Assembly: GCA_950106755.1 (NCBI GenBank)
Contig: OX467083.1
Span: forward strand, 48,002,555-48,066,554
DNA from: Climacium dendroides
Taxonomy: Eukaryota > Streptophyta > Bryopsida > Hypnales > Climaciaceae
Direction: 5' to 3'
Length of the DNA stretch: 64,000 nt
Below the pieces are notes generated by a model. It was not told the origin of the DNA and searched no databases. It saw only the letters and a list, made by a program, of their open reading frames with translations. The translations under genes were made by a program, and so were the position numbers. Positions 14,301 to 59,251 of this stretch are shown piece after piece (position 1 is the stretch's first letter; every line of letters begins with the position of its first letter).

Positions 14301-16320
14301 GATGGAAAAAAGGCGTAGAGGTTAAGTGGTTAACCTCCATGCATTGCAAGGTGATTTAGTGTATGCTAGATTCCATATTTGCTTTTGAAAGTTTTCATGA
14401 TTGAACTTAACATTATATACTTATGAATGGTCAGAATCCTCGTTCTCATGTAAAACAAAAATTTCACTATAAGAAAGATCAAAGTCTGCTGACCTTGTTT
14501 TGAAGGAATGAAAAACGTTGCTTTTTTCTCACTTTAAACGTTAAAATCTTTCAATCCACGAGCTCGAATGAGCTGAAATTATTTTCACTTTTGATATAGC
14601 AATCTAGTACACTTTTGTCCAATTGAAGTTCAAAAAAAATATTTTAAATTTTGGACAATGCACTAAAAATGGCAATTTTTGACAATTTCTTGTTAAAAAA
14701 CACCCTTGGTCCGCTTTGGGAGTTAAATAACTACTATGACTTTAATTTAATTCATTGATGTAGATATTCTATTACCATACATGTAGGGTAGGGCTAGCTT
14801 GTTGGGAAAAATTTATAAATGTAGATGCTATAATTTTTGGAAAACTTGTTTTCTAAAAGAAAGGTTGTATGAAAAAAATATTTCTATTTTTTTTATCAAT
14901 GTCTATCAATTATCAAACTACCGAACCTTATTTTTGGAAAATAATTAAGTTTTGATAGAAATGTGTTGATTATGTCTTTCACTTGTAGTGATGAATTTGT
15001 ATATAGAAAAACTAGATGAAGAATTGCATTTCCTTGCTTGCTACCACTATTTACATTTGTCAAGTGGATATAATACATTTTAGATGGCATTCTAGAATTA
15101 ACTCTAGACATCTAGAGGTCCAAAAGTGGCCAATTGATGACTTTCAAGATTACAATGGAAATAAAGAATGCACTTATTGGTCCAAAAATAAAATCATTTT
15201 TTTACCAAGTATTTTGGTGATAGGTCTTGTCTTTTGAAACCTCTAAAATACCTTAGAAGCCAAAAATGGCCTTGGGATGACATTTATTACTTTCAAGAGA
15301 CGAAAAAATTGGTTTTTCATCAAATTTTTATAGAATTGAGTTGAGCACTTTTGCAAGAAGTTGGTGTTAGAAATCCTCTCTTTGTGGTATTATTGACTTT
15401 TCTACATAGGAAGATACTTAATCCATAGATTATCATGTAGTGTATTTTGACAACTTCAAACTCCTTGCTCTTAATGTGAATTTGAGTCATAAAAATGATC
15501 TTTTTTGAATTTGAGCGTGACTAATTGAAATGAACATAATGAGGTGAAGTTTCTTATCCAATTTGAAAATTTCAAAAAATTCTAAAATTGGATATTTTAT
15601 TGCAATTTGAACTTTGAATCTACAACAATAATCTAATATTTTTCTAATTATAGAAAGATAGGATAAATTTTTTACTCCATCATACACTCCACTAAGAAAT
15701 TTTCAGATTTTTGAGTCAATTTGGTAATTGATATGAATTTTCTTTAATTTACCCTTAAAAAAATCACAATAATTTCTAATTTTCACATAATAATATGAAA
15801 ATTTATTGACTTGTAGATGACATGTGATTTTATATCTAAAAAATAAAAATAAAAAATTTCAAGAATAAATAGCTATAATATAAGACCATACAAAGTATAA
15901 ACTAAGAATTTTGTAGTTTAAAATCCTAGTCATAGGTCTGTCCTTTCAAAGTTAACCCTGTAAAGACAAAAGTGTCCGATAGATGGTTTTCTAGGTCACC
16001 CATTGTAGAAATGAAGAATGCACCTATTGGTTCAAAAATCAAGATCATTTGGAGCAAAGTTCCTTGGTGTAGTAGGTTTCATCCTTTCACCAAGGTTCTA
16101 GCTTCCCTCTTTTTATCTAGGTTGAAACTCCTCTTGAACCCAACAAAAATAGGTTAAAATCATGTAAGACACATAATATTATGGACATTTTCACAAGACT
16201 TTTTTTTATTGGCAAGACCTTTTTCAAGTGCCAATTCTACTTCAAGGGCCAATTTTACATATTCAAAGGCCAATTCTTCATGCATTGCGACCATGAATGT
16301 GCCTTTACCCGATTTTAACA
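11400..16320. repeat. AT-rich dispersed repeat, copy B
   Basis: Blocks 12260-12720 and 13320-13400 resemble 23670-24190, and 14320-14720 resembles 24190-24590, in the same order and orientation as at 23-30 kb but strongly diverged. The remainder is AT-rich with long A and T runs. No coding sequence is supported. Confidence 0.55.
12732..13323. mobile_element. hAT-like MITE, 592 bp, with 8-bp target duplication
   Basis: Flanked by a perfect 8-bp direct repeat TGGATTTC (12724-12731 and 13324-13331). The termini CAGGGGTGCACTACAAAGG and the inverted right end share over 40 bp of near-perfect terminal inverted repeat, running through GTTCATGGGTGAGGAGC. The interior is AT-rich and noncoding. An 8-bp duplication and a CAGGG-type start fit hAT elements. 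It interrupts the dispersed repeat, whose uninterrupted counterpart is near 24120. Confidence 0.75.
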
Positions 16321-16332
16321 TTTGAGAAAAGA

Positions 16333-16427
16333 TTGGCCATGGCTGATTCTACTATGTGCCCAGTCATAGGGCTCATCCTATAGGTTCACCCTATGACTGC
16401 ATACAAGGTAGAGTCGGCCATAGCCAA
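16333..16427. repeat. 95-bp imperfect hairpin
   Basis: The left arm, beginning TTGGCCATGGCTGATTCTAC, and the reverse complement of the right arm, TTGGCTATGGCCGACTCTAC, pair over about 45 nt around the block CAGTCATAGGG, leaving a loop of roughly 5-10 nt. It could be a miniature foldback element or a small-RNA precursor; the sequence alone does not decide. Confidence 0.55.
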
Positions 16428-16814
16428 CCCTTTTTCTAGTACATAGTGTAATTATAAGTCATAAACCTTTAAATTCCTCAATTTTTTTCTAATTTTGGCA
16501 CATTTTTAAAATAAGTATATAAATATCATTTATATCAATTTAATTTAAAATTATTCTTAAAAGAAGGATTGTCTTTTCAACATTCAAGTATTACATTGGA
16601 TGAATGAGAAGTTAGTTCAGCTAAACAGTGTCTATAAGTATAAGTCCTCTATTCATTGTTCAAAATATGGATGTTGAAGCACTTAAGGGTTAACCCATTA
16701 AGGACCGTAGTTGATTTTTTGAGACGTTTTCTGATCTTAGCTAAACATGGAAAAAGAATACCAAATTGTAATACATTCTGAAAATTTGATTGTACTGATG
16801 GAATTGGTGTGAAT

Positions 16815-16975
16815 GTATAGTGGGAGGCCCTCACATGAGGGCCTTGCCTTCAAGGCAAGGGTGGAATGCTCACACGACGGGAGGCCCGCGTGTAAGGGCC
16901 TCCCGCTTCATTAAGCACGCCCATTATAGCGCCTGGTACGATTACTAGTGCCAAGGCGCTATTACTAGTACATTA
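16815..16975. repeat. GC-rich cluster of short palindromes
   Basis: Successive inverted repeats lie close together in an otherwise AT-rich region: GAGGCCCTCACATGAGGGCC, CCTTGCCTTCAAGGCAAGG, GGGAGGCCC paired with GGGCCTCCC, and AGCGCC...GGCGCT. No gene was recognised. It may be the remnant of a small inverted-repeat element. Confidence 0.5.
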
Positions 16976-16999
16976 TGCCCGGTACTTGGGGAGATTTTC

Positions 17000-17555
17000 T
17001 AAAGAGACCTTCACAAATAGTGCTTAACACTCGGAGCTCTACAGTAAATGCATGACAAATTTTACATTGATTTCCGTATTTTTCAACCAATATTTTGTTT
17101 TTTGTTTTTTTAGCCCCAAATCCACATGCTAGTATAGATTGTCTTAATTCTTGTCCCATTGCATTTGGTTCCCAATTCCCCACACCCATTCCCTTTCGTC
17201 CATATCCAAATTCATTCCAAAACTCTGGCTACCAATGAAAAAGTGTTAATTTCGACCAAAAAGTGGTCGACTAGTCCTTAATAGGACCAATCCATAATAA
17301 TGGGTTAAAAAGTCTTGGCATTGCATAAATATCGACCTATTTTACAAATGGCTGAAATAGTGTGACAAATCAAATTCCTATCAAATACCAATACTACTGT
17401 TGGTCTGCTCATCGAGCAGATGGAGCAATGGCTACACATTCAAGACTGATGCTCAAGCTGGATCATTCACTTCAGATGACGCACCGCTCCCTCGTCTAGA
17501 ATTCCAGATGGTGCCGCATTCTTCAGACTGGGAACCAACTTATCATAGTCGAAAC
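17000..17555. other. Intergenic and Deg1 3' flank
   Basis: No recognised coding sequence. The part next to 17556 is presumably the Deg1 3' UTR (minus strand). Confidence 0.5.
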
Positions 17556-20500
17556 TTATCCATCCCGAGGTTCCAAGGTAACATCTACACCCACTTTCTG
17601 ATCCCCACGTAGCACCTCCAATTGCACCTGCCACGCAACAGGAGACCCCCAAAAACAGTCACGCCCCACCGTTTTCAGAAGAAGAATTGAAAAATAACAC
17701 TTTGTGCAAAATTTCCATTTGGAAGTGGGTTTACATTTGAACTTGTAATATTGGATTCTACCTCGTGAACAACATTCAGTATACTGTTTGTTATTCAGCA
17801 ATCCAGCAAGGAGGGTGACTTCGGGGTTGACAGAAAAAAAAAGAAGAGAGAGATTTCATTCACTAACATGGAAAAATAAAGAACTAGTAAAGCATATCAA
17901 TTGCACTGTAGAAACTTGTCTTGTATGCTCTATGATGTTTGATGTTGTGAAGTCTTCGATTCACCTTTTGACAACAACAACAAAACATTTTGCTTCCTTG
18001 TTCTATTAAACGGAGACTTCCCTCTTGCTAAACAGTATTATATTACATGCTAGATATTTCTCAATAAACCTTTCATAGTCTGGCTCACGAGAAGGACAAA
18101 CCCAGACACAATGCCATTGTTGAACAAGAACCCATGCACAAAGACATACAAGTACGTAAAACGAAATGTTGGTTGAGAGAAGAACTCAAAAGCATGAGAA
18201 AAGTAGCGTACCGTGTCCCCCACTTTGCAACGGTCCAGAATCTTGTAAAGGTCACTGCCATTGGAAATCTTCTTCCCATTCATGGAGGTGATGACATCTC
18301 CCAGAACCAAACGTCCATACGCGTCTCGAGTGGTTGCCTTCAGTCCCTATTTTTTTAAACAGAAATAAAAATATTGAAAATTATGGAAACCTCATGAACT
18401 CTATTTCTGCACAGGGGAAAATTTTCCCCATTGCTGAAACCTGCCTTGCACATACGTGTGTCTGCTTAAGTGGTCAGAAATGGGTTGCCTCCCTTATAAT
18501 GGTAATACTACTAGTGCTGTATACGAGCAATTGCCCTCTCTACCTCACCAAAGAGTTGCAAAAAGTGTGCAAAGCTTGACAGTGGAACTGCAGCATCCAA
18601 CTTGAGTGAAGGAAGGTGACAACTTGAAGAGAAACTTACGGCTTTTCCTGCGGGACCGTTGGGAGGGGCATCCAGTACAAGCACGCCGCTCACGCCCAAC
18701 TGCTCGACTGATTGCTCGGGTGCAAATGAGATTCCCAAAACAGGACGAGTCACTTTGCCATACTTGATAATCTGCTCCACGATGCCACTCACCTAACCAG
18801 CCCAAATTCTTCAGTCAGTCGTACTCAAGTCCAGTCAGTTCAGTTGAAACAAATCTTCCTATTCTTAGCATTCAAATTAGAAGACCTTTCATAGCCTTTT
18901 ACCTCCCAAGACTCTTCTTAGTTCCTATATTCACTATTGCACAACCCTGGGAAGACCTTTGGTTTTGAATGATGACAAATGTACAACATGACCAAATAGA
19001 CCTTGAAAGCACGGACTTCGAATCTAGATAACTAAGAGTATGACTTCCCAATACATGAATGGTCGATTACTTGTGGATTACTTGGAAATCGGGGACCAAA
19101 TCTTTAGAGGTTTCTACTAACGAGTATTGAAGTACTAAGTAATTCGAGGGCGTGTCGTGTATGCCTACGGGCATCACATAACACACTCTTGTCTGTCACT
19201 TTCATTAAAGCAAAGCAACGCTTGGAAAGGAGAGTGATATAGAGTCCTAAACCCCATCCTCCCCAAACTCTTTAAAGGAGCCCTAAATCTCTGAACTTTT
19301 GATGGTTTAGGGTTTAGTTTGGTGGCGAGATTTTCTTATGCCCGGGAACCGACTCAAGCATAACGGCTCTCGTCTGATGGTCCAGTCCAGTACGTACCGT
19401 GTCCACAGGTATTGAGAATCCCACACCCGATGATGCGCCAGATGGAGAGTATATGGCCGTGTTGATTCCGATGAGGTTGCCCGAGCTGTCTAGCAAAGGG
19501 CCTCCACTGTTGCCCGGGTTGATTGCTGCATCAGTTTGGATGACATCCTGAATCGGTCGCCCTGTGGATGCCGAGCTGATTTCTCTCCGCAACCCACTGT
19601 GCCCACCATCACCCAAACAAAGCATCAAATTTGGGGTCCCCGACTTGCAGTGTACATACCACGAATACCAAGCTGAGGCCGTCTGTCCCTCGAGAACAAG
19701 CTCGCGTTTTGAGTGAAGTTAATTCTACTCGAACTTCCTCACATTCACTGTAAAAATATAGCTTAAACTTGATAATGCAAAGCCTCCTCTCCTCTCCTCT
19801 CCTCTCCTCCCCTTTGTGAACATACCTAATCACTCCCGTGGTCAGTGTGTGGTCCAGTCCGAACTGCACCCAAATTTGAAAAACAGTGAATTCATGAGAT
19901 TATAGCCAAGACAGTTGCAGAACTCCAACCAAACAACTGAGATTTCATGGTTACGAAGTGACCCATTTGAGAAGTATACTTCAGATGGGGTCACATTTCG
20001 TAGCACCATAACAGTGAAGAACGTTGCACAAGTTGGTAATGAAAACATATGATGGGTCCTTTAGGTGTAAAACCAGAACTATTACAAGAAGGCACAAACG
20101 GAACAGAGGAAGAATTTTTAGTACCGGATTGCCAATAGCAAAGACTTTCTGACCCACGAGAAGGTCATAAGACATGCCCACAGGTAGTGGCCGCAGATTC
20201 TCTGATGGGACATCAATATGGAGGACTGCCACGTCCTTATCCTCGTCGAAGCCAACTATGTCCGCCTCATAAACAGACTGGTCACCTAGAGTCACTCTGT
20301 TACAGCACGAGCTTTCTTTTCAAGAATATATTCGCACTCACACCTCATCAAGGAAATGAAACAAACATTACTCACTATTCTAGTCGGAAAAACAATGCTA
20401 ATTCTACTTCCCATCAATCATGGATTTTAAACCTCAATTATATCTTCCTACACTACACTACTGTAGTAGGAAAAAGCAAGGTTGTGATCAGGGAACATAA

Positions 20501-24189: not shown

Positions 24190-27100
24190 TTGCCAATTCA
24201 TTTAACTTCCTTATATTGCAAGGTAATTTAGAGTAAGCTACACTCTATAGTATTTGCTTTTGAAATTTTTCATGAGTGAACCTAACATCATGTACTTATG
24301 ATTGGTGAAAATATTCATTTTTGAATAGAGCAAAAATTTTACTCCGAGAGGGCTTAAAGTTTCCTAATCCCATTTCACAAGAATGAAAAAAAAGTTGTTT
24401 TTCTCAACTTCAAACATTGTAATCTTCCAATCTACTTAGTTAAATGGACTAAAATTTTTCACACATTTCCTCACTTGTTTAATATACTTTGGTATGGTTG
24501 GAATTCAAAAAATATATATTTTTTATTTTGGATAATGCATCAAAAATTGGTAGTTTTAGACTTCTCTTCTAAAAGCATCTCTCTACCCTTTGGAAGATAA
24601 CATGATGAATAAGATATGTTTGACTTTTTATTTTATAATCACTTTTTTCACAAATACCTATCATACCACTCAATATATAAGATTGGTCATCCTAAATAGA
24701 AAGACAACTTGATGAGACTATCTGGTGCAAAGGGTCTATAAAGCAACCATTTATAAATTCTTTTGAAAGAAAAATAAGACTAATATACAATTCAAGTTGT
24801 TTCATATTTATTTGGATTCCTATGCAATTAGTTATAAAATTTTGAAACTAAAGTTGCACAAGGCTTTGAAAGAGTTGTGTTTATCATTAGCATATCCAAA
24901 ATTCCAATGTATAACTTTGTATTACAAGATGGTTGTAGAATTCAGGTACTTTGAGCACTTCCTAAGTACCTTAACCTCCAAATATTTCCATATTCTTAAA
25001 CTCAAAACTGCTTCAAAGTACTTAAACCAAAACAAGGCTAAAATCTCCATTTATATTTATTCATTAACAAATTCAACTATAGGATCCTTTAGTTTAACTT
25101 GTTAGCATATAACCCTCCTAAAATTTCAAAATAAAAAACCTTACCAATTGCAAGATCAAGTCTCTTCAATTTGGAAAAGGGGCATTTTCAACTCTTCCCA
25201 AATGGTTAGATTTCATCATTCAAACCTTTTACACAAAAAAGTTTAGATCTTAAAACTTAGTATTCTCCATTATATGTTGAATAAATAAGTTGGGAATACC
25301 TATGAAAAATTTCAAACATAAAATATTTCATATTCATGCTTGAAAAAAATAGTAAGTAGAAAAAAGTACAATATGATATAAAATACTAAATTGTTAAGAA
25401 TGGAGTTATGGAGTTGAAAAATGGCAATTCCAATGGTTGTAATGTTGTAGTAAACAATCTATACACAATGCTTTTATTCTTTTCAAAAATATTGAAAATT
25501 GAGTTAAATAAAAGACTTCAAGGTTTATTTTACAATAAAAATTCCATAACTACCTGCAAACTAAAATTCCTTATAACTTTCATTTCATTAACCAATATGG
25601 GATGATTCAAAGCTTTCCACATGTATATAAATCTAGAAAACTAGTTTCAAATTTTTATTTTTAAGAATCTTTCTGAGTTGCTTAGAGTGCCCACCAAATA
25701 ATGAAAATCACATATCAAATAATAACTTTTAAACCATGTAGTCAAAAATTATGAAAAATTTTGCACCTTAAAGCTACTCTTTAGGCACATATTGTGTAAA
25801 AATTCCTTTTGTAGTGAGCTAACCAAAATTGCTATGTTGCCAAAAAAATACCATTTGGTGCTTTAGGGATTAAACTTTGAACCCCTAAAGTCCCATTGTC
25901 TCCTTCTCTTCTCACATTAACCCTTAAAGCACAAAATGGCATTTTTTTAGCAACATAGGGATTTTGGGCAACTCACTACAAATGGAATTTTTATTTTTTT
26001 TCCTTTGAAATTTTCACACAACATGTCCCAAGGAATAGCTTTAAGGCCCAACAATTTTTATAAATTTTGATTACATGGTTAGAATGTCATTGTATAATAT
26101 CATTGCATGGCTCATAGATTGGGAAGCAAAAAAACATTCTTTAAAAAACATTTTTTTTTAATTTGAAATTAATTCTTTAGATTTATTTATGCATAAAAAG
26201 CTATGAATCATTCCATTTTGATTAATGAGATGAAACTTATGAGGAGTTTTAGTTGTGGAATCTCTATTCTAAGATAAAATTTGAAGTCTTTTACTTAATT
26301 GTAGTCTAGATTTTTGCTTCTTCACAAAACACCCAGGACTATAATATAGGGGTTCTAAAATCTAAGGGAATGGTCAAATCGTCTATTGTTTTGCAGCTAG
26401 AAGTCACTTGTTTTCAAGATTAGAAGGGGATTTACTATAATATTTCACAAACAACAAGGAATAATATATTCACTCTTATACCCACTAATATAATTTGGTG
26501 GCCAGTCCTTTAAATAATGCTATGGACGCGTGAAATGCAGTCCCAGTCCTACCTAGTATTCTAGGGGAGTTTTTCAACAATTTGTCAGGTTTGACCACAA
26601 TTTGTCATGCACATGATCTAATACTAGACAAATGCAAATATATAATATATTTATATAATTGTATACAATTCCTTAATTATTGGTGATTTGTGTTACCAAG
26701 ACAATTTGTCCAATCACTAATTAACTAGCTTAATTACTAGTTTAGATGAGTAACAAACCAGTCTCGGTCCTACAACAATTTGTCTCTATCTAATGCAATG
26801 GGAATGAGTATTTTATGCAATTCTTCCAAGCTTAGAACACTCTGCACATTCACAACAATTTGTCAAAGTACACGATTCATACAAATACAGGAATCAGCCA
26901 AAGGCACATGATCTCATTGCCAACCTTACCATTTCAAATTAATTTTCAGACTAATTGTCTTATCCAAAATGAAATCACTCCATTTGGACCTATCCTCACA
27001 ACTGCAAGGCAACCTCAATTTAATTCCACTCAGCAACTAATTTCCCCAATTGTTGTGCTAACTGGTAAGACAATTAGTCATATTTAATATTCACCAAATC

Positions 27101-30047
27101 AGGGCACACTTCTTATGCCCCAATTCACTCACTAATATGAACTAATCACTAGTTCAAATTGACTCTTCAAAATCAACCCTTTGACAATTTGTTTAATTAC
27201 TTCAAAATTATAAATTAGAGATCAACATACAATTTGTTAAATTTTCCAATCAAGAAATAAATTATTTAACAAATTGAAAGATCACCATAAACTATTATTG
27301 ACTTTCTTGTAGCCATACAATTTAATCCACATACCCATCGATTTGATTCACACAATCACACATACACATAATCCAATTCACAATTCAATTTAAATTCACA
27401 AAGACAATTCGTTTGCATCCGGCTAGTCCTCCTGGATCTTAATAATCAAGTAAGACGACTTGTCCTACAACTTATAATCAATCTTTACAATTAAGACAAT
27501 TTGTTAAGTTTGAACTTACTAGGTGTTGAGTAATCTTTTGTTGTTCTTCACGATTTTACTCCAATCTGGTTCTCGCACTTGACCATTAGTCTTCCGCACC
27601 ATGAGACTCCATCAACAACGATATCGTGTATGGACTCTCATCATCTCAACTAAACTTACTCTTAATTTTTAAAATGAATCACACAAAATCCAAGCAATAT
27701 TCACGGCCTGCTTGTTTTAAATACTCAATTCAAGACTTATAACAACTGGACAAAAATAGTCTATGCAATTGATACAATCACGGTCAATCGTCCAATTATT
27801 TAATTTGTGTTTGCAGAGACTGACAATTGGTCAAGGACGATTGGTTGTATGCACACACAGACAATTATAAAATCCGACCTTAATATCACAATTGAATTGC
27901 AAGTGTCGAATTCGAAAGTCAAATCACCAAATCAATTTACAATTACAATTTGTCACAAAGAATTTCAATTATACAACTCATCTATCCAATTTCTAGAATA
28001 CCGTAATGCACATGCATACAAAAAGAAGAATATCTGCACAATTTGTCAATGACCCACAAATTGCACTTTCCAATAATAAAATTGATGCAAAATCACACGA
28101 CCAAACCCACAAAGGATCAACTCTCAAACACACACAGGTGTTCACACAGATTCACCCACAAACCAAGCAAGACCCATACAAGATCAACCACTACACTTCG
28201 TTCAAAAACAATTTATATAGAAGGAATTCACAATTTACAATGTAGCAAAAATTCACAAAACACTGTAGAGCAAAAACGACCTGAAAAGTAAGAGTGAGTG
28301 AGAGAGAGCAAAATGACAAATCGACTGCCTATATGCTACTGCAAAAGCTGCAGCTTTCCGATATCAATAGCAACTAAGACAATTCATCACCTTCCCTATC
28401 TAACAAGGATAAAGCTCTTAAAATCTCTAGACCAATTGTCTTTTACATTCATTCCTGTTCATTTTCTACTTCCTATTAGTATTCATCTATCCTTTTAACT
28501 ATAACAGACAATTAGTGAAAAATTCAAAAATTTGAACGCTCACATTAACTCAATTTTCAATATTTTTGGATAAGAATAAAAACATTAGGTATAAATTGTT
28601 TATTACAACATTACAACCATTGGGATTGGCATTTTTCAATTCCATAACTAAATTGTTTAACAATTTAGTATTTTGAAACATTTTCTATTTCTTTCTACTT
28701 ACTATTTATTTCCTATATGTTGTACAATTCCAAATGATGTAAAATTTTCAAGCATATAGCCAACGTGTCTTGGAAAATGAATTCAAAGACTTACAATCAT
28801 TTTGGACACTTTTTCATACAAATGGGACCTTGTGAAGTACAGTTGCAAGTTTTTTCAAAGGATCAAAAAAGGATTTTTGTCACTTCAAATGTTAATATCT
28901 TGCAATTTACACAAAAGAAAATTTTTGAATTTTTTTCATATTTTTTCAAACCTATGTACTACAAGATCCTACATTTACATGTGTCTATAAATGTTTTTTC
29001 TCTAAAATTTGGTACTTGTAATAGGATTGGCAATTTTAAAGCATTTTTGGTGAAAACATAGTAAAAAAACATTAGGGGGTTAAAACTCATAGTAAGGTGT
29101 TGATGGCAAATGGTTAGATTGCATTGGTATATTAGCCATTGGATCCTTTGGATTTTGAGTAAACCATCTTTCTTTGTAGTTATTTGTTGATTTACATGTT
29201 TGGTCAAGAGTCAGTCGATTTTCTAAAATTTGATTGGTGGAACATTTTCTAAAATCTGATTGGTGAAAATTGACAAACTCTTGATCTAGAACTACAGTCA
29301 ATTTTCACTACAGTAGAAGGTCAAGAGTCTGTCGATTTTCACCAATCAGATTTTAGGAATCTATGAATTCAACTTCTCAACCCTTCACACTAGTTGGCAC
29401 AATCTAAAGCCATCGCCCTCCAAATTGACAATATGGCAAAAAAATAACTACATGGCGACAGACTCTCAACCATAGTTTAGATTGGCCAAAAATGAAGACC
29501 CAAACTATGATTGAGCTTCTATCGAATTTTTTCCTTAAAAATGAGAAACTTTCCATTAATATTTGCTATTCCTATTATTTATTGCCTATGAAGAGCTTAT
29601 TTCTTTGGATGCTCACCAAAGGTTTGGCCACTCACTCCCATAGCCTCTCAACTTGGACAACCATAAGTTGGTGTGAAGTAGCCCTTAAAAGAAGCAAAAA
29701 ATGGAACTTACTATAAATGTACTATCACTTATTCCAATACTAAAGCTTATATTAACCCTTAAACGTCGAGGCGGACGTTAAGTAGACATCTGGCATCCAA
29801 TGGATGATAAAGGATCTCTCCATGTAGGACAAAAGTACAACTGTTCATCCTCAGAATTTCATGTGGAAAAGTGAGATCTTCTCCAGTACTTTGACTTCCA
29901 ATGAATGCTTTAGCAATTTTTTGAGCTTAGTTATGATTCACACAGCCATCAAACCTAATGATTTCATCCAAGGTCACCCCATTGTCCTTTAAGGGTTAAT
30001 GATGTGGATGAATTCTATGGATGAAAACTGGAGAGAGGAAACTGAAG
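24190..30047 (+). repeat. Segmental duplication, copy 1 (5,858 bp)
   Basis: Nearly identical in direct orientation to 55778-62999 once a 1,365-bp insertion in that copy is removed (5,857 bp remain). I noticed about two dozen substitutions and one 1-nt indel by eye, many of them in the last ~800 bp. Sequence left of 24190 continues the dispersed repeat as in copy B, so this is probably the older locus. Confidence 0.92.
26300..28544. mobile_element. Solo-LTR-like element, 2,245 bp (copy 1)
   Basis: Starts TG (TGTAGTCTAG) and ends CA (GAACGCTCACA), with a 5-bp flanking repeat TTAAT/TTAAC (26295-26299 and 28545-28549; the other copy keeps TTAAC on both sides). The related repeat at 6586-6600 shows the uninterrupted site. 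It has no coding potential. About 17 motifs of the form GACAATT or CAATTTGTC are scattered through it. TG...CA ends plus a 5-bp duplication fit a long terminal repeat left by recombination. Confidence 0.7.
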
Positions 30048-30050
30048 ATA

Positions 30051-30215
30051 CTTCTAAAAATTCATAGCCTACAAATCCTAAATCCTAAAGCATTAACCCT
30101 AAACCCTAAACTTCTAAAAATTCATAGCATGAAAACCCTAAACCCTAAACCCTAAAAACCCTAAACCTCTAAAAATTCATAGCTTGAAAAGCTGAAACCC
30201 TAAAATCCCAAAATG
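30051..30215. repeat. Interstitial telomere-type repeats interleaved with a short spacer
   Basis: Plant telomere units CCCTAAA occur in short runs at about 30095-30165. They alternate with three copies of CTAAAAATTCATAGC (from about 30053, 30113 and 30168). The tract begins within a few bases of the 3' limit of duplication copy 1. Confidence 0.85.
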
Positions 30216-30960
30216 GATTTGATAGAAAATAAGCCACCAAGAAAAGGCCTAAAAATATTGGGCAATCGATGGGCACACGACCCGAAAAGTCAACCTATTA
30301 GAACTATAGCACACAATTTTGTATATGGACAATTTTTTTTTGGAAAATGCATTGGTGGAGCCACATCTTTTTTGTAGAAAGCTGGCAAAAGCGCCTTCAA
30401 GTGAATGACTGAACAGCCAGGAATCAAGGAGTTTGCAGGAAATTTGAAATTTGGAATTGCCTGCTAAAATATTCCCGCTTTTTCTAACTTTTTGCCCACC
30501 TCTTGCCACGGACAACTTCACTTGCCAGAACATGCCTTCTTCTACAAACACGCCGACGAGACTCTTTTGCTCTTGCTATTCTCTTGCGCTTCAAGTGTGT
30601 CTGCCTAACACATTGACAACTGCAGGTCCTCAAATGTTTTTCTTCTTGTTTGTGAGTTCATAGATAGAAGGTGTAGTTTGTATTTAAATTAGTTGCCATT
30701 GACCTCGACTGGTGGTGAGTTAGTTTTGTACATATTGATGTCAGGAAGTACGTGAAACTAGTCATTGAAGGTCCATGTTTGTGACATCTCCATGCGTGAA
30801 GACGTTATATTTGTTGAGCGAGCCTGTAGACTATAAGGAATTGATTACTCTTGCTTTTGGTGAAGAGAGTTGTAACAAAGTTGTTTGCAATGCCCATTTT
30901 TTGCGGCGTGAATGTCAGAGCATTTCATGGATAATTCCATTACTTCAATACTGTCATTGA
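30216..30960. other. Unassigned region upstream of the palindrome array
   Basis: No recognised gene. Small open frames (for example 30775-30960, plus) lack known domains. It may contain the left part of the transposon whose transposase-like gene lies at 32723-35574, but no terminal inverted repeat was identified. Confidence 0.35.
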
Positions 30961-32468
30961 GGGTACTTATCGTTGAGTCGACGATAACTGTGACCTCTTT
31001 GACTTCTACTTATCGTCGAGTCGATGATAACATAGTCAGATTTTTTCAATTGGCATTCCTAGCAAATGTGTAGCTACTTCAGTTTCTTCTTATTTCAAAG
31101 CAGAATGTGCATCGGGTTGAATTATTTCTTTGCCAAATTGAACAAATCATGAAAGGAGTTTCGTTGAGGATAGTTATCGTTGAGTCAATGATACCTCTGA
31201 TTTCTTTTGCTCCTAATTATCGTCGAGTCGATGATAATGTAGTCAGATTTTCTCAATCGGTATTCTTAGCAAATTTGAAGCTACTTCAATTTCCTATGAT
31301 TTGAAAGAAGAATGTGCATTGGGTTGAATTTTTCCTTAGTCACAACTAACGAATCATGAAAGGAGTTTCATTGAAGATCATTATCGTTGTGTCAACGATA
31401 ACTCTGAGTTCTTTGACTTCTAGTTATCGTCGAGTCGATGATAACGTAGTCAGTAATTTTCAGTTAGCATTCTTAGCAAATGTGTAACTACTTCGATTTC
31501 TTCTGATTTCAAAGCAGAATGTGCATCCGGTTGAATTATTTCTTCGTCAAATCGAACAAATCATGAAAGGATTTTCATTAAGGATAGTTATCGTTGAGTC
31601 AATGATACTGCTGAATTCTTTTGCTCCTAGTTATCGTCGAGTCGATGATAACGTAGTCAGATTTTCTCAATCGGTATTCTTAGCAAATGTGTAGGTACTT
31701 CAATTTCTTATGATTTGAAAGAAGAATGTGCATTGGGTTGAATTTTTCCTTCGTCACAACTAACGAATCATGAAAGGAGTTTCATTGAAGATCATTATCG
31801 TTGTGTCAACAATAACTCTGAGTTCTTTGACTTCTAGTTATCGTCGAGTCGATGATAACGTAGTCAATAATTTTCAGTTAGCATTCTTAGCAAATGTGTA
31901 GGTACTTCAATTTCTTATGATTTCAAAGGAGATTGTGCATCGGGTTGAATTATTTCTTCGTCAAATCGAACAAATCATGAAAGGAGTTTCGTTGAGGATA
32001 GTTATCATTGAGTCAATGATACCGCTGAATTCTTTTGCTCCTAGTTATCGTCGAGTCGATGATAACGTAGTCAAATTTTTTCAATCGGCATTCTTAGTAA
32101 ATGTGTAGCTATTTCAATTTCTTATGATTTGAAAGAAGAATGTGCATTGGGTTGAATTTTTCCTTCATCACAACCAACGAATCATGAGAGGAGTTTCATT
32201 GAAGATCGTTATCGTTGTGTCAACGATAACTTTGAGTTCTTCGAGTTCCAGTTATCGTCGGGTCGATGATAATCTTGTTAGTAATTTTCAAAGGTGTAGA
32301 TACTTTAATTTCTTATGATTTCAAACGAGATTGTGCATTGGGTTGAATTATTTCTTCATCACATCCAACGAATCAAGAAATGAGTTTTGTTGAGGAGAGT
32401 TATCATTGAGTCAACGATAACTCTGAGTAACAACAACTTTCGGTTATCGTCGGGGCGATGATAATGTC
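30961..32468 (+). repeat. Eight ~206-bp tandem units, each with two near-palindromes
   Basis: Sixteen near-palindromic motifs related to TATCGTCGAGTCGATGATA. First members start near 30968, 31173, 31379, 31587, 31793, 31999, 32207 and 32398; second members near 31010, 31217, 31423, 31630, 31837, 32043, 32251 and 32442. Spacing between units is 205-208 bp except the last (191). Units alternate between two types (TTGAGTCAATGATAC versus TTGTGTCAACGATAAC), giving a ~412-bp higher-order period. The array ends immediately before a TATA box and the transposase-like gene. Confidence 0.9.
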
Positions 32469-32471
32469 AAC

Positions 32472-32480
32472 TATAAATAA
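32472..32480 (+). promoter_or_regulatory. Probable TATA box (TATAAATAA)
   Basis: Lies just after the last palindrome and about 250 bp before the start codon of the transposase-like gene. Position and sequence fit a core promoter, though the transcription start is not known. A TTGCAG acceptor-like site just before the ATG suggests a possible 5' UTR intron. Confidence 0.5.
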
Positions 32481-32722
32481 AGTGTTTGCAACTTTGCATT
32501 GAAAATTATTTACTTAGATGAAGATGAATGACTGAATCATAGCACAAATCATTGGATCATCCATTCAACGATGTTGTATTCGTAAGAAATTATAGAGACA
32601 TGATGTTAATATTAGTGAATATAGAGTATGTTTAGTTTCTAGTGTACTAGAAGTTGCTGCAATAGAACATCTTTATCTTTGACTGAACAATGAATCTAAG
32701 GATTGGTCTTCGTGCTTGCAGA

Positions 32723-35574
32723 ATGGATTTCCATGGGTTTGATGAGTTCGCGAATCCAGTTCCCCCATTTCCACCTGATGTTCAGGTATGCGAGGGGATT
32801 GCTCGTGCAAAATGGGTCTCACGATTTGTCACTCTTTGAAACGAAGATGGGGTGGACCTTGCAAGGGGGGTTTGCCAAAATGTTGACCCAGAGTTAATCA
32901 TTGACCAAGATGGAAAGCTTCTTGGCGATGACCGGGTTGCCATTCAAATTGTTGAGTCTCTGAACGAGGAACTCTTCTCATCTGGCAATGTATGGTCACT
33001 TCGTTCCTGGGACATCAAGAGAGTTTTTTTAGATGACGATGTCAGCTTATATGACCATGACCAAACCCATGTATATAACGCAGCCATGAATCCATCAAGC
33101 AGAAGAATTCGTAAGGGGGTTCGATCGTACGAAACAACTCGTGAAAGGATTGATCCAGAGATTCCACCCAAGAAAGAACTTCTCCTCTCTATGGAATTGA
33201 TCACATCAGTGTCTACAAAATCATGTTGTGAGAAAAATTGTGTTCAACCTTTTCCGCGTGGACAAATCCAAGCGATAAGGACTGAACTATATTCAGGTGA
33301 GGACTTCAAGGCGCGTAGCAAGACACTTTTGGAGGTGCATAGGCAAATCCATAAAGACAGTGCTGGCAAAGAGTGGATTACCTTGAAAGGTAGAGAAGTG
33401 TGCCCCACTGCATGGTGGATCATTCATGGGATTGCAAGAGCTACGTTCTATAGGTACAAAGAGAAGGCTAGAATTGGGAAGCAAGCTCAGGTGCATAGAA
33501 ATGTGGGATCCAAAAAACCCCGCATGCATATTCCTCAAGCTATTGCACGCTTCGAACTCTTATTGAGTCTGATGCCGATCGAATGCCACACAAAACAAGG
33601 ACAATAGAGTCTGGGGAGAAAGTTGCAGCGATGGTTCTACCTTCTGCTTTTTGTTGGAGTGACCAATTACCTAAAATCAATGAGTCCAATGCAGAGTTCA
33701 ATTTGAAGCCGATTTCTTCCAGTGGCTTGAGCAACATTCGCCGTCAGAATTTCCCTGAATTTGCTGCCAAGGCTCGTGGGGATAGTTTTGCTAGGTGTGG
33801 CTTGTGCGATGAGTATAAGCAATTGAGGAGCGCTTGTTGGAAATCAGAGTCGTTTGATAAGTATACCAATATTTTGAATACCCATGTTGCAGGTCAGAGG
33901 GCTCATAGATAGTACTACTATGGAAATCGGGAATTTTCCGTGAGATGCCCAGACAAAATGTTGTGCATCATTCATGATAAAATGGATCATTCAAAAACGG
34001 CTTCTCCACACTTTTCTCACAAGAACAAGTCGACGGAATCCTTCATGAAAATGCCTGTTGCTGTTACAAGTATGATTGCTCATGGTCATGGCGATGTACA
34101 ATATACACACTATGGTGTGGGCATTTTCCCAACAGATTCGAATCATACCATTGGGTCTATTGCAAGGTTGTTGCGGGATTTGGAAGGCCCGCCTAAAAAT
34201 TCATCGAGGGCGTTATTTTCTATTGAGGAGGGGCAATCCACATTGACAAAGGCGCTTTTAAAAGGAGCAGAAAATTGCTTGGACTCCCTCCTTCCACCTC
34301 CAGAACAGCCACTTCCAGCTCAACTTCTCCCACCAATATTAATATTGCAATTGGACAATGCGTCAGGGGACAACAAGAATCGATATGTTTTTGCTTTCTG
34401 CTCTTTGCTTGTATACAAAGGCATTTTTCGTGAGGTATACATCAACTTTCTTATTGTGGGACACACTCACGAAGACATTGATGCTCTTTTTGGTCGATGG
34501 AGTTCAAGATTGAAGACGAATGACTATCCAACACTTCCAAAGCTCATGAAGTCCTTTATGGATTGTGAAACGCATCCTATGATTCCTCATCTCATTGAGG
34601 AGCTCCTTGATTTCAAGAAATTTGTGGAGGGTTATTTGGGCACTGGTGGAGATGAATTAGGAGGGCATTCGAAAAGTCAACAATTCAAGTTTTTTATGGA
34701 TTCTTCAGGATGGCCTTTGATGGAGTATAAAAATTTGTGTACTGACCCAAAGTGGTTGCCAAAGCATGGCAATGGGATAAGAATGTGGTTAGAGACTAAG
34801 GATGGACTTCCTAAAGTACCAAGTAGTAGCCCTAAACCTTTGGCTCCAGTTCCAATGAAAGCTCTTGAAGAGATAAAGAAAGGTTTGAATGGCTATGTTA
34901 AACATTGGAACAAAATGGCAAACAATGATCATAGTGGAGAGTACAGGCGGAAGAATGGTCCACTAGAAGAGTATTGGAAAGGCATCAGAGCTGCTCTAGA
35001 TGCACCTCTTCAGGTGCGAGAGGCATTACTTGATGGATTTTGGCCAGCTTCAAGGATTGCCAATGATGAAACAGATCAAATGCAAAGAAATGGCACATTA
35101 CGTGAAGAAAATGCAGAGGATGCCAACTTTGTTGGACGTAAGCGTGATCGTCCACGTTCTTCGTTTCGTGTTGCTCGTGATACACACGTAGGTTCTTTTG
35201 TTGCAGTGCGTCTTGCTGATGGTGATCCAAAACCATTTTGGCTCGCTAGGGCTATTACGGCTCCGAGTCCCAATCCAGGGCATATGCATATGATCAAAAT
35301 CCAATATTGGAGGCCTACTTCGGATCGGCACATTAATATGGAGACATATGAGGGTTGGGACACCAAACAAGGGAATGTGTGGCGTGAAGATAGTGTTATA
35401 CCTTCAACATGGTCAAGCACAGATTGTATCATGACAGCTTGGAAGCCACGGTTTCGTGATGGAACTAAAAATCCAAAGGTGACGGTTCCAAGTCTACAAA
35501 TTCAAATTATTAAGGCATCAGTGGCAGCCTTCACGACTACTGTAAATAACGATGGTTCTATGATTGAAGAATGA
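32723..35574 (+). pseudogene. Transposase-like gene (DUF7869-type family), inactivated
   Basis: The reading frame starts MDFHGFDEFANP and runs with three lesions: an in-frame TGA at 32837-32839, a frameshift near 33580-33605, and an in-frame TAG at 33910-33912. The remaining 554-codon frame to 35574 holds LCIIHDKMDHSKT, then LQLDNASGDNKNRY and FLIVGHTHEDIDALFGR, which I recall as hallmarks of the DUF7869-type proteins that are repetitive in several plant and animal genomes. The acidic residues in these motifs suggest an RNase H-like nuclease core (inference). A C-terminal block, FVAVRLADGDPKPFWLARAI through IKIQYWRP, looks like an SH3- or BAH-like barrel. Upstream lies the palindrome array and TATA box. 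With the lesions it cannot make a full protein unless edited or misread. Host domestication is unlikely. Confidence 0.75.
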
Positions 35575-36094
35575 CTTATAGTTCATAATTTTATTAGACA
35601 AATGTTGTTTTGGTAGTTCAATTAGAGCACTCATTGTAATTATTAACAAGTTTGGGCATGTTTACATTCATATATGTATTGGTTACTTTTATTATGGTAG
35701 TGTGCCTATGTATGAGAAATTGATTTCTATTAATAGTAAATTTTTTTATTACTATTGCGTCTCCAAGTATTGTATTCTAAATGTTTTTGGTGAATTTTTG
35801 GTAATTCATATGTTTAATTTCAGGTTAAAGTTTGCTATCCTCCATGTATACATTAGTTTTTTGACATATGAAAGTTTTGATTTTTAAAAATGTCTCACTT
35901 CATAATGTCTTTGACTATTTTGTTTTCTTTTTTACAAAGGAATTAGTAAATCAAGATGTACTTTTGAGTTTGTGCTACTTTAGTTAATAGTATAAAATTA
36001 ATGAAATACATATTTGACATTTTCAAGTCTCAATTTAATGAACCCTTCTTCCACCTTGCATGTATGAAAAATTAAAATGAGACTGCAATTTGTC
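35575..36094. other. Short intergenic gap between two transposon genes
   Basis: AT-rich, no gene. It must contain the 3' end of the transposase-like element and the left limit of the CACTA remnant, but I found no CACTA terminus here. A hairpin, AAAATGAGAC paired with GTCTCATTTT, lies at about 36075-36102 over the TNP2 stop. Confidence 0.4.
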
Positions 36095-39000
36095 TCATTT
36101 TAACGAATAAGGCCTTTGAACTCTTTCACTCAGCCACACTGCAAACGGAGGCAAATCGGAGAGCTCGTTGGGATACCGCACTGGCACTGACGGATGTTGA
36201 CGACGAAATTGTCTTCGAAAGGCCTCCCTTTCTTCCCAAATCTGGCCTCTCGCTAACACATACTCCCTACAAGGCATTCAGATCATGCATTGTTAGACAA
36301 CGCTTACAGTGCTAGGGCGCAGTGAAGAAGCATTGTGAAGGTACCATATGTCCTATTCGACGTGGACTGCAAGTTTTATGCATTCAGAGAGATGTTCACA
36401 ATGACGTCGATACGAACACGTGTATAGCTGAAACGTTACAATAAATGTTTATCAAGACATGATCTCCAACATTGTGCACATTACCGTCCAAGTCCCTAGA
36501 CAACAGAAGTACAAATATGATCTCACAGTAAACTCCAGGGAAACAATGTAAAGAAGGTTGAAAAGAGCACTCACTCCCACCATGGTTCTAAGCACGCTGC
36601 GTTGTCCAGGACGAAGGCATGCGCGTAGTTGCGAAACTCATTGGACATTTTCCGCTTTTGCATCTTCTTGCTTGAAATAATTTCATCAGTCATGATGGGT
36701 TCCTCGGTAGCATCCCACACCCGTTACGTTGTTGCTCCATACTGCTACATGTACTCTGTGCAAAATCCTAATGTCTCCTCCATTCGATAGCCTTCAGCAA
36801 TGCTACCCTCGGGGTGTGCATACGTCCGCACATAGTCTTTGAGTGTTTTCATATATTGCTCAATTGGGTACATCCACCGGCAATGCACAGGACCGCAAGT
36901 GAAAAGTTGCTCCACTAGGTGCACAGGCAAATGAGACATGATGTTCAAGAACGTTGTTGGAAACTCCTTCTCAATCTCGCATGTCGCCATGACAACATCG
37001 CGCATCATGTCTTCCTTGTCATCAGCTCGCACCTCCTTTGCACATAGCCTTTGGAAAACCCTGATCATTTTAATAATAGCTAGGCGGACCCTCTCATCTA
37101 ATATGTTTTTAACTGAAATGGGAAGAATCTGCAAAACATGTGGACGCACACAAACAAAGTTATTGCATTGTTGGATATTGTCGACATTGAGGTGTACACT
37201 AAGAAAGGAGTGCAGGTGGTTCCCTCACTTGTTGCATGAGGACATGATAATCATGTGTCTTCATATATTGCAGCTTCTCGTCCACTAAGTGCTTGTAAAT
37301 GCTACCCACATAGTTTGTAGGGGTCCGAATGTTTGAGACAATGGCTACAAATTCCTTGCGCTCATTTGGTGTTAGTATGAAAGGTGCACGTGGCATGTAG
37401 TATTGATCATTTTGCCGTCGTGGAGGTTGTAGCCATATCTCTTCTCGAATGCCCAATTCCTCTGCATCTACTCTACTTCCAGCACTGTCCTTCATGCCCA
37501 ACAAAGTTTTGACTATGTTTTCACACATATTTTTTTCGCAATGCATGGCATCCAAGATGTGAGGCTCCAACAAATGCTGCCACAAGGGAAAAAAAAATTG
37601 GGAATTACAGAAAATAAAGCAGAGTTCCGAAACATGTGTACCACTACTGTCAAGCATGTACTCTTCAAGTGCTGACGTGCTCTTCACTTCTCAAAACAGA
37701 GTGTTGTTCATCCAAAGCAGTGACAACTACGTTACTCCCAATGTCTGATATAACGTCAACCATAATGTCCCAATAGATGTTAGGAATAACAACTGTGACA
37801 TACAGATGGTTAGAAACCCACTGACCTTCCAATACGGCAACTGGGACAGAGGACACATGTGCTTCACCCCAGTGACATGAACTGGGTCATCAGGCCCATT
37901 TTCTCTCCCTCCTAGATCCAAGTACGATTGCGGCCACGCTGCGTATGCGATGGTTTCCTCGGTGGTTTGTTTCCGGGGCCTATCACGAGGCTCCGTTCGA
38001 CTATTAAACCTCAAATTGCGTCGGTAAGGGTGATGCCGAGGTAAATAACGACGAACACCACCATACACAATCTTTGAGCCCTTTGTTCGCCTGTTAGGAA
38101 GAACGTCTCCTAGTTTAGCCATCCTTGCATCGGTGTCTTTTCCACAACAAGGACAACCCTTGTATCCCTTACAGCACAAGCCGGATATGAGGCCCAAGGT
38201 CGGAAAATCAGAGATCGTCCACATCAATACAGCGCGTAAGGTGAAACTGCGACTCCCTTCTACTTGGGAGAAATCAAGGGCTGCAACACCTTGCCATAAT
38301 TCTTCAAGCTCCTTCAACAATGGACGGATGAAGACACCAACGCCTTTAGATGTAGGTGAGTGCTTTCCCGAAATTAGTATGGATAGTGAAATGAAAAATT
38401 TCTTGGTCACTAACCAAGGCTCAAAGTTGTATATTAGAATTAGCACTGGCCAAGTCGACCAATTACTGTTGTTCAACTTGAATGGATTCACACCATCTAA
38501 AGCTAGATCCAGCCACATGTTTCGCACCTCAGAGCTGAAGGTGCCGAATGCGACGTCTGTGTCGATGTGCTTCCAGGCAGGACTATCGACAACTGAACAC
38601 ATGATCCCGTCATCACTAACATGCTTGAGGTAGCCAGTCAACATCTGAGCTATCTCTGGTGAGCGCCACATTCATTTGAGTTAAGGAATGAGTGGAAAGT
38701 GCCGAATGACCTTGGAGGGAATGTTATTTGAGCCATCCATCCACCGGGAGCTACTACAATGGGGACAAATCTCCAATGATGAATATTCATCTTCAAAAAG
38801 GATACAACCATTTGGACACCCATGCACGTTGTTGTAATGCAAGTCTAATTTTCTAATGGTCTTTCGTGCTTCGTAATGGGATCCCGGCAGCTTATTACCT
38901 CTTGGTAGTAAGTCCACAGACAAATACCGGAACAACTCATCACTAAAGCTATTGCTCACCCGAAACACTGTACACATGTTCATAATTATGATGGTGGCTG

Positions 39001-39622
39001 AGACAACACTTGTCCCTGATCCATTGTACAACGGGGTAGTAGCTTGTCTGTAAAGGTCCTCCAATCCGTCCACACTATCACCACCAACGTCATCGTTTTC
39101 GGGAAACTCCACACTACCTTCAGCCTCTCCGTGTAGTGCATCTCCTCTGTCCAATGCCTCAAGGACCTGCCGGTGGACTTTGTGATATGCATCTAAAGGG
39201 ATGTGGGGCTCCGCATCAGCTTGCCCTGCATTTTCATGCTGTGCGACGTTGTTGTTGATGTCAGGCTCAATGTCAAAGGGAGCATTGTCAATGACATCAT
39301 TGTCATAAGCAATGTCCTCTACCCACATTCCCCGCCGTGGATAGCCCTTGGGGGGATCTCCACCCAGTAAGGATTTTGTGAGAAATGGATCCCGACCAAC
39401 CTCTCCGTGGTGCCGGCGAATAACCTGAATGGTTTTTTGTAAACCACCCTTGCAATCCCTGCAGGGACACCTGAATGATCGAATGTTTTCCTCTGTGGCC
39501 ACTCTCAACTCAGTGTGCAAAATCAAGTCACCAAGTGGAATGTGGCGTAACGTGCGTCCGTCTTCTGAAATACGGATAGTTGCACCTTGTCGGTGGGTTT
39601 GGGAATTGAGACGCCACACCAT
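36095..39622 (-). pseudogene. CACTA (En/Spm) TNP2 transposase, inactivated
   Basis: Exons in transcription order: 39622-37826, 37576-37229, 37128-36575 and 36266-36095, joined by GT-AG introns in consistent phase. The N-terminus has a Cys-rich transposase-associated motif (CPCRDC). Then come TTPLYNGSGTSVVSA, GSHYEARKTIRKL, the TNP2 core LDGVNPFKLNNSNWSTWPV, LDAMHCEKNMCENIV, and GPVHCRWMYPIEQYM with EGSIAEGY. Four in-frame stops interrupt it: TAA 38681-38683, TGA 38672-38674, TAG 36745-36747 and TAA 36724-36726; homology continues after each in the same frame. TNP2 catalyses excision and integration of CACTA elements. It diverges from the plus-strand TNP1-like gene, as expected for one transposon. 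An additional upstream exon is possible. Confidence 0.85.
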
Positions 39623-55777: not shown

Positions 55778-56142
55778 TTGCCAATTCATTTAACTTCCTT
55801 ATATTGCAAGGTAATTTAGAGTAAGCTACACTCTATAGTATTTGCTTTTGAAATTTTTCATGAGTGAACCTAACATCATGTACTTATGATTGGTGAAAAT
55901 ATTCATTTTTGAATAGAGCAAAAATTTTACTCCGAGAGGGCTTAAAGTTTCCTAATCCCATTTCACAAGAATGAAAAAAAAGTTGTTTTTCTCAACTTCA
56001 AACATTGTAATCTTCCAATCTACTTAGTTAAATGGACTAAAATTTTTCACACATTTCCTCACTTGTTTAATATACTTTGGTATGGTTGGAATTCAAAAAA
56101 TATATATTTTTTATTTTGGATAATGCATCAAAAATTGGTAGT

Positions 56143-57504: not shown

Positions 57505-59251
57505 AGTTTTAGACTTCTCTTCTAAAAGCATCTCTCTACCCTTTGGAAGATAACATGATGAATAAGATATGTTTGACTTTTTATTTTATAATCACTTTTT
57601 TCACAAATACCTATCATACCACTCAATATATAAGATTGGTCATTCTAAATAGAAAGACAACTTGATGAGACTATCTGGTGCAAAGGGTCTATAAAGCAAC
57701 CATTTATAAATTCTTTTGAAAGAAAAATAAGACTAATATACAATTCAAGTTGTTTCATATTTATTTGGATTCCTATGCAATTAGTTATAAAATTTTGAAA
57801 CTAAAGTTGCACAAGGCTTTGAAAGAGTTGTGTTTATCATTAGCATATCCAAAATTCCAATGTATAACTTTGTATTACAAGATGGTTGTAGAATTCAGGT
57901 ACTTTGAGCACTTCCTAAGTACCTTAACCTCCAAATATTTCCATATTCTTAAACTCAAAATTGCTTCAAAGTACTTAAACCAAAACAAGGCTAAAATCTC
58001 CATTTATATTTATTCATTAACAAATTCAACTATAGGATCCTTTAGTTTAACTTGTTAGCATATACCCTCCTAAAATTTCAAAATAAAAAACCTTACCAAT
58101 TGCAAGATCAAGTCTCTTCAATTTGGAAAAGGGGCATTTTCAACTCTTCCCAAATGGTTAGATTTCATCATTCAAACCTTTTACACAAAAAAGTTTAGAT
58201 CTTAAAACTTAGTATTCTCCATTATATGTTGAATAAATAAGTTGGGAATACCTATGAAAAATTTCAAACATAAAATATTTCATATTCATGCTTGAAAAAA
58301 ATAGTAAGTAGAAAAAAGTACAATATGATATAAAATACTAAATTGTTAAGAATGTAGTTATGGAGTTGAAAAATGGCAATTCCAATGGTTGTAATGTTGT
58401 AGTAAACAATCTATACACAATGCTTTTATTCTTTTCAAAAATATTGAAAATTGAGTTAAATAAAAGACTTCAAGGTTTATTTTACAATAAAAATTCCATA
58501 ACTACCTGCAAACTAAAATTCCTTATAACTTTCATTTCATTAACCAATATGGGATGATTCAAAGCTTTCCACATGTATATAAATCTAGAAAACTAGTTTC
58601 AAATTTTTATTTTTAAGAATCTTTCTGAGTTGCTTAGAGTGCCCACCAAATAATGAAAATCACATATCAAATAATAACTTTTAAACCATGTAGTCAAAAA
58701 TTATGAAAAATTTTGCACCTTAAAGCTACTCTTTAGGCACATATTGTGTAAAAATTCCTTTTGTAGTGAGCTAACCAAAATTGCTATGTTGCCAAAAAAA
58801 TACCATTTGGTGCTTTAGGGATTAAACTTTGAACCCCTAAAGTCCCATTGTCTCCTTCTCTTCTCACATTAACCCTTAAAGCACAAAATGGCATTTTTTT
58901 AGCAACATAGGGATTTTGGGCAACTCACTACAAATGGAATTTTTATTTTTTTTCCTTTGAAATTTTCACACAACATGTCCCAAGGAATAGCTTTAAGGCC
59001 CAACAATTTTTATAAATTTTGATTACATGGTTAGAATGTCATTGTATAATATCATTGCATGGCTCATAGATTGGGAAGCAAAAAAACATTCTTTAAAAAA
59101 CATTTTTTTTTAATTTGAAATTAATTCTTTAGATTTATTTATGCATAAAAAGCTATGAATCATTCCATTTTGATTAATGAGATGAAACTTATGAGGAGTT
59201 TTAGTTGTGGAATCTCTATTCTAAGATAAAATTTGAAGTCTTTTACTTAAC

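Follow-up and report, generated by a model that had tools for sequence, protein, structure and literature searches.

Palindrome arrays in large DUF7869 transposons of the moss Climacium dendroides as candidate operator-like sites

The window analyzed here is a stretch of 64,000 nucleotides from the moss Climacium dendroides (contig OX467083.1, positions 48,002,555 to 48,066,554). It holds a tandem array of palindromes directly ahead of a decayed DUF7869-type gene, inside the remnant of a DNA transposon of 19–20 kb. Complete copies carry a second, divergent gene, here called the companion, with a predicted ParB/sulfiredoxin-like domain. On balance, we lean towards a reading in which operator-like sites for a regulator encoded by the element are spread across the whole of it and the array is their portion next to the promoter, with the companion as the favored binder. 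An operator-type role had been among the suggestions of the initial annotation of this DNA and is the best-supported reading.

The array and its transposon

The array consists of eight tandem units. Six are 207 bp long, the seventh is cut to 191 bp and the eighth stops after its own pair of palindromes. This agrees with the eight units of ~206 bp with two near-palindromes each that had been annotated, the unit being 207 bp and the spacing within it 43–44 bp. Tandem Repeats Finder (TRF) reports 30954–32428 with a period of 207 bp, 7.2 copies and 81% matches. Its better alternative is a 414-bp dimer with 3.6 copies and 90% matches, a period that the annotation did not contain.

The sixteen palindromes form eight pairs spanning 30967–32464. 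Each is an odd palindrome of 21 bp, with 10-bp arms and a single central base. The sites start at 30967, 31010, 31174, 31217, 31381, 31424, 31588 and 31631 in pairs 1–4 and at 31795, 31838, 32002, 32045, 32209, 32252, 32400 and 32444 in pairs 5–8. The start-to-start distance within a pair is 43 bp (44 bp in the last), and the distance between pairs is 164 bp (148 bp ahead of the final one). At up to 3 mismatches, TTATCGTYGAGTCRAYGATA is found at 16 places (31 rows when both strands are counted) against a shuffle mean of 0.02, and at this threshold it is absent from the rest of the window. The TATA box, TATAAATA, begins only 7 bp beyond the end of the final site at 32464, so the array indeed ends within the ~10 bp of it that had been noted. 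The features of the element in the window are as follows.

30050..36116, + strand: last 6.07 kb of the DUF7869 transposon, its left ~13.9 kb missing (96.0% identity to 13886–19963 of copy L023)
30073..30204, + strand: telo-box-like AAACCCT cluster inside the element, ~0.75 kb ahead of the array
30954..32467, + strand: tandem array of 207-bp units in 414-bp dimers, with 16 odd palindromes of the TTATCGTyGAGTCrAyGATAA type (TRF, pattern search)
32472..32479, + strand: TATA box TATAAATA; the same sequence lies behind the last array site of copy L025
32723..35574, + strand: DUF7869 transposase gene, decayed, with an in-frame TGA and a frame change (PF25273, tblastn)
36089..36116, − strand: right terminal inverted repeat, 28 bp

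The array recurs with the gene. A 414-bp query against the assembly that contains the window (123 contigs, 412.6 Mb) gives 143 matches grouped into 40 places, so there are at least 40 arrays, with 40 of 65 candidates scored. The 20 best-ranked of these loci were retrieved for inspection, and all 20 show DUF7869 similarity directly downstream of the array. The match is near full length in one piece at 15 (stop codons not excluded). Three others run over two frames, one starts at residue 36 and one, L017, is interrupted near residue 245, with other DNA there.

Conversely, among 48 scored DUF7869 genes, the array is present at all eight with a 969-codon frame. Five of these are in the array list, and the other three were checked on 601 bp each, every one of these stretches holding 6 palindrome sites. 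An array standing without the gene as an ordinary satellite was thus seen at 0/20 arrays, and a gene of this class without the array at 0/8. The co-occurrence at several loci, proposed earlier as a check, extends to a right boundary common to 19 of the 20 copies, L017 being the exception.

Three copies, L013, L023 and L028, were traced to the left end; in ascending order, the lengths are 19,142, 19,151 and 19,963 bp, the longest being that of L023. They have 28-bp terminal inverted repeats, which agree at 28/28 positions in L023 and L028 and at 27/28 in L013, and all three have the termini AAGGCC..GGCCTT. All three are flanked by 4-bp target duplications, namely CCTT, AAAA and TAAT. A Helitron, which a hairpin near the right end had brought up, was dropped because of these inverted repeats and duplications. 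Between the left end and the array there are 14–15 kb, and between the array and the right end 3.7 kb. It is therefore internal to the element, of which 30050–36116 is the part in the window; the annotation did not contain this setting, and its idea of an amplified transposon end does not hold.

The DUF7869 gene is likely the transposase of these elements. Its predicted fold is DDE transposase-like. In the window, the frame at 33940–35574 matches PF25273 (DUF7869) with an E of 5e-45, and the gene is spread over two frames by tblastn. Its earlier description as decayed fits this copy because of that split. Three of the eight genes of the 969-codon class are free of internal stops.

Sequence searches of the PDB found nothing significant (best E 0.47 and 3.1), and the plasmid search had no significant match. 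In viral contigs, the protein search gave 3 pattern stretches and no relative, and the pattern search no significant match. NCBIfam gave 0 families for the 4 proteins scanned, and DUF7869 is named in no paper found by the literature search.

Two observations concern DUF7869 itself. A second, more distant DUF7869 stretch (38–46% identity to protein P0005) lies directly behind the element in 2 of the 20 copies, at reverse-complement positions 8480–9996 of L025 and 7368–8222 of L027. The Ceratodon purpureus homologues P0022 and P0096 carry KC19_VG tags and sit on a contig of 110.5 Mb, possibly the V sex chromosome to judge from the tag. Protein similarity to Ceratodon and Physcomitrium agrees with the moss origin of the DNA.

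The companion gene and palindromes beyond the array

A scored companion gene lies within 25 kb of 30 of the 40 arrays, divergently in 30/30. Likewise, 15 of the 48 scored DUF7869 genes have one within 25 kb, divergently in 15/15. Eight of these 15 belong to the 969-codon class and seven to other classes. The gap between the two genes is 5.5–8.1 kb in 13 of the 15 and 20–21 kb in two. The companion query came from the element's own family, and the scored loci are 48 of 2351 candidates for DUF7869 and 86 of 1045 for the companion. Hence, unlinked loci are no evidence that a companion is absent.

The palindrome is not confined to the array. With up to 4 mismatches allowed, the three complete elements have 11, 11 and 14 further sites, whereas 20 shuffles average 0 to 0.1. 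Five, five and nine of them precede the first exon of the companion, and one per element lies at the end of that exon. Two per element lie at 4630–4734, within either a later intron of the companion or the region ahead of the following reading frame; three, three and two lie further left. In L023, six sites follow each other at 46-bp steps. The annotation had sites beside a single gene, on one flank of it, but the palindrome is also present around the divergent companion gene.

The palindrome also stands ahead of DUF7869 genes with other frame lengths. Five DUF7869 loci outside the 969-codon class (L038–L042), one copy each, were searched over 2.5 kb upstream. They hold 5, 12, 10, 9 and 2 sites, against 0 in 50 dinucleotide shuffles each, and every locus has one site within 220 bp before the start codon. 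The repeat units differ: 40 bp (9.8 copies) at L039, 94 bp (3.2 copies) at L040 and 55 bp (2.7 copies) at L041, while L038 and L042 have palindromes in no tandem unit. When the palindromes are masked, none of the five upstream regions resembles that of the window.

One match comes from outside the assembly. In a collection of 84,980 prokaryote genomes, TATCCTCGASTCGAGGATA matches a single contig, L037 (CADCWO010000074.1, 4235 bp), binned as a cyanobacterium in a metagenome bin labeled Synechococcales. The contig carries a companion homologue, P0154, which is 38% identical. Its gene reads as an intron-bearing transposon gene of plant type, and the contig is probably plant contamination of the bin. 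With up to 4 mismatches allowed, it has five sites, of which four precede the gene and the fifth follows an apparent 5′ splice site by ~20 bases. A matching intron site exists in the window's own element family; splice sites were read by eye in both.

Near the C-terminal end, 9 of 82 companion homologues (eight in one frame and the ninth in a different one) and 6 of 53 have peptides that spell the palindrome, compared with 0 of 120 DUF7869 proteins, the 120 listed of 315 found. We take these peptides as intron read-through, which is confirmed as DNA only for P0154.

Conservation was measured on 101 regularly spaced units from 20 copies, with irregular units dropped. The B site of the pair is 98.0% conserved, compared with 89.8% outside both sites, and 0 of 112 spacer windows reach its level. 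The arrays range from 10 to 24 sites, and 18 of the 20 copies have 12, 16, 20 or 24, numbers that differ by whole 414-bp dimers; these counts omit a weak site 229 bp further on.

What may bind the sites

In the mechanism we propose, large DDE transposons would hold two core genes facing apart, the DUF7869 transposase and the ParB/sulfiredoxin-like companion. Each 21-bp odd palindrome, TTATCnTCGAnTCGAnGATAA, would most likely be the site of a dimeric DNA-binding protein encoded by the element. Site clusters just ahead of the TATA box and surrounding the companion may recruit this protein densely to the control regions of the element. There, it would regulate the transposase and companion genes or shield them from silencing. 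Ahead of related elements, the palindrome has been amplified on separate occasions.

A binding site is the most economical reading because the same palindrome is multiplied in differing flanks, before transposase genes and around the companion. We rank the natural candidates for the binder as the ParB-like companion, then the transposase and then a host factor. In the predicted model of the companion, the favored binder, the fold of the ParB N-terminal domain is recognized. The model ends at residue 487, and the later exons have no Pfam match above the cut-off. At the C-terminus, a possible methyltransferase motif, HPTE...ENVLGIYTG, was read by eye in one copy, and its HPTE is not conserved among homologues. 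The only PDB matches of the C-terminal profile are two arginine methyltransferases (E 0.91 and 1.1), with none in Pfam above the cut-off.

Several observations weigh against or qualify the reading of an element-encoded regulator with the companion as its binder. The A site is 91.7% conserved, which is unexceptional, as 42 of the 112 spacer windows reach that. In a dyad test of 110 distinct sites, two variable arm positions are symmetric above expectation (0.45 vs 0.28 and 0.77 vs 0.59) and the other eight show no excess symmetry; these sites were preselected for palindrome likeness and their kinship is uncorrected. Among the five loci of other classes, L041 and L042 have 229 bp in common and therefore are not independent.

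As to the companion, it reads NGQHS (44 aligned sequences) at the position of the triphosphate motif, which is the arginine-bearing GERR in ParB. Pfam gives no DNA-binding domain and no family at the cut-off in the companion pieces scanned. The ParB and sulfiredoxin folds are also found in proteins that bind no DNA. Finally, the assembly has 547 exact palindrome matches, with 0 for the reversed control, and among the first 50 listed, all on one contig (C1), 22 are separated by over 8 kb from every element part scored. As a small share of candidate loci was scored, these 22 may or may not belong to elements; the other 28 lie within 8 kb of such a part.

A stronger version of the companion reading is tentative, and we give it a minor share of our belief. 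A ParB-fold protein could load at the palindrome arrays, spread from them and keep the promoters open against silencing or hold the copies together. Selection for loading sites would then have driven the separate amplification in several classes and in more than one species.

Binding by the DUF7869 transposase itself, for autoregulation or assembly of the transposition complex, is unlikely though not far-fetched. TnpA of the CACTA elements binds repeated subterminal motifs, and all 20 arrays checked here precede a transposase gene. In addition, some model matches to Mos1 and TnsB start at residue 192, before the catalytic domain and where the DNA-binding parts of these proteins lie, albeit at a root-mean-square deviation near 12–13 Å. 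However, the palindrome is absent from the 28-bp terminal repeats, where the transposase must act; 3/3 copies have a half-site, TCAATGATAA, at left-end position 92. Further palindromes are clustered ahead of the companion gene.

Ranked next, and likewise improbable, is a host transcription or chromatin factor whose sites the transposons have multiplied for expression or tolerance. One conserved host factor would require a common motif, and the palindrome is indeed common to several DUF7869 open reading frame (ORF) classes and to the contig of another genome. By contrast, VANC targets differ between related elements, according to the cited passages (PMC5735166). Telo-box clusters precede the palindromes at 3 of the 6 DUF7869 loci examined, namely in the window (30101–30201), at L040 (709–763) and at L041 (579–603), the latter two sharing a telo-box run; L038 has one AAACCCT copy and L039 and L042 have none. 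The 22 distant exact sites fit a host factor as well. Against it, the window has no palindrome outside the element, and 28 of the 50 listed sites are near element parts despite the small share of candidates scored.

It is very unlikely that the palindromes act as RNA hairpins, in splicing or small RNAs, rather than as DNA sites. The L037 site just past the splice site and the sites shortly before the start codons of L038–L042 would suit such a role, but the array is upstream of the TATA box and would be outside the mRNA. Least credible is a functionless satellite made by neutral tandem duplication and traveling with the transposon family: tandem arrays expand easily, the copy number shifts mostly by whole dimers and the A site is conserved no better than the spacer, but the B site beats every spacer window, single sites exist outside arrays and the same palindrome sits at other loci in otherwise dissimilar repeat units.

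Known systems and neighboring features

To our knowledge, VANC and TnpA are among the few known systems by which transposons act on host silencing in a sequence-specific way. If the proposed role is true, the moss elements would be a second, unrelated transposon-encoded anti-silencing system, and such systems would arise repeatedly. They would also offer a testable rule that selection amplifies the motif density and not the flanking sequence. A site of 21 bp is long enough for unambiguous counting, as the exact matches and the reversed control indicate. In a literature search of titles and abstracts, no plant DNA transposon was described with a palindrome array or a ParB-like protein.

In En/Spm, a CACTA element, TnpA is an element-encoded regulator that counters methylation, and repeated motifs lie near the promoter. 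The motifs are terminal there but internal and palindromic here, and the ends and the transposase also differ. The layout resembles that of VANDAL/VANC of Arabidopsis. There, in the passages cited, a second, anti-silencing protein encoded by the element goes with a short motif that is dense in the non-coding parts; its tandem repeats precede the transposase gene and also lie in companion introns, and repeats are gained or lost between copies (PMC5735166, PMC10398659).

The moss elements share with VANDAL the placing of motif arrays before the transposase gene and of sites in companion introns (those of L037 and the own element). They differ in having a 21-bp palindrome, compared with YAGTATTAY in one orientation as described there, and a motif shared across ORF classes. 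They also have 4-bp target duplications and a ParB-like companion with no Pfam family at the cut-off, in place of the DUF1985 VANC protein. Anti-silencing is a putative role in the moss elements.

The bacterial ParB–parS, Noc and KorB systems resemble the moss one in a ParB-like fold, predicted here, and in repeated palindromes near genes; sopC of plasmid F is a comparable repeated-site system. Unlike them, this is a eukaryotic transposon whose companion lacks the triphosphate arginines and in which no DNA-reading domain was found, and partition is not implied. In bacteria, as the cited part of one report has it, silencing can be counteracted by a member of the ParB family, which is an analogy only (PMC10653881).

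Among transposon groups, Sola elements are similar by description in the 4-bp target duplication (3/3 here) and in the transposase size, that of a Sola2 element being 888 residues (PMC3627910), and Sola1 is listed for Physcomitrella (PMC9033089). Neither a palindrome array nor a ParB-like companion is mentioned in the cited passages on Sola. The Lanisha elements, which come from moss, are large.

They are considered here together with the CMCT clade, which, in the passages cited, has DDE-type transposases, target duplications of 2–5 bp, a CxxC between the second D and the last acidic residue and mostly 5′-CA..TG-3′ termini (PMC12730594). The present elements are likewise DNA transposons with a DDE-type transposase and short target duplications. 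Membership was rejected, as residues 544–586 of P0005, the sole sequence checked, have no CxxC and the termini are AAGGCC..GGCCTT, not CA..TG.

A direct duplication flanks the remnant, with 24552–30047 and 57505–62999 being 99.6% identical over 5.5 kb. The duplicated sequence stops at 30047, just where the truncated remnant begins (30050). A further duplicate pair, 24190–24554 and 55778–56142, is 100% identical over 365 bp. Just past the right end of the element, the − strand of 36745–39622 holds a CACTA-type transposon remnant with Transposase_21 (E 4.7e-56) and DUF4218 (E 7.4e-32) domains. The element itself holds an exon of an NLI-interacting-factor-like phosphatase, on the − strand of L034 at 6322–7251 (PF03031, E 3.6e-11), possibly captured from the host.

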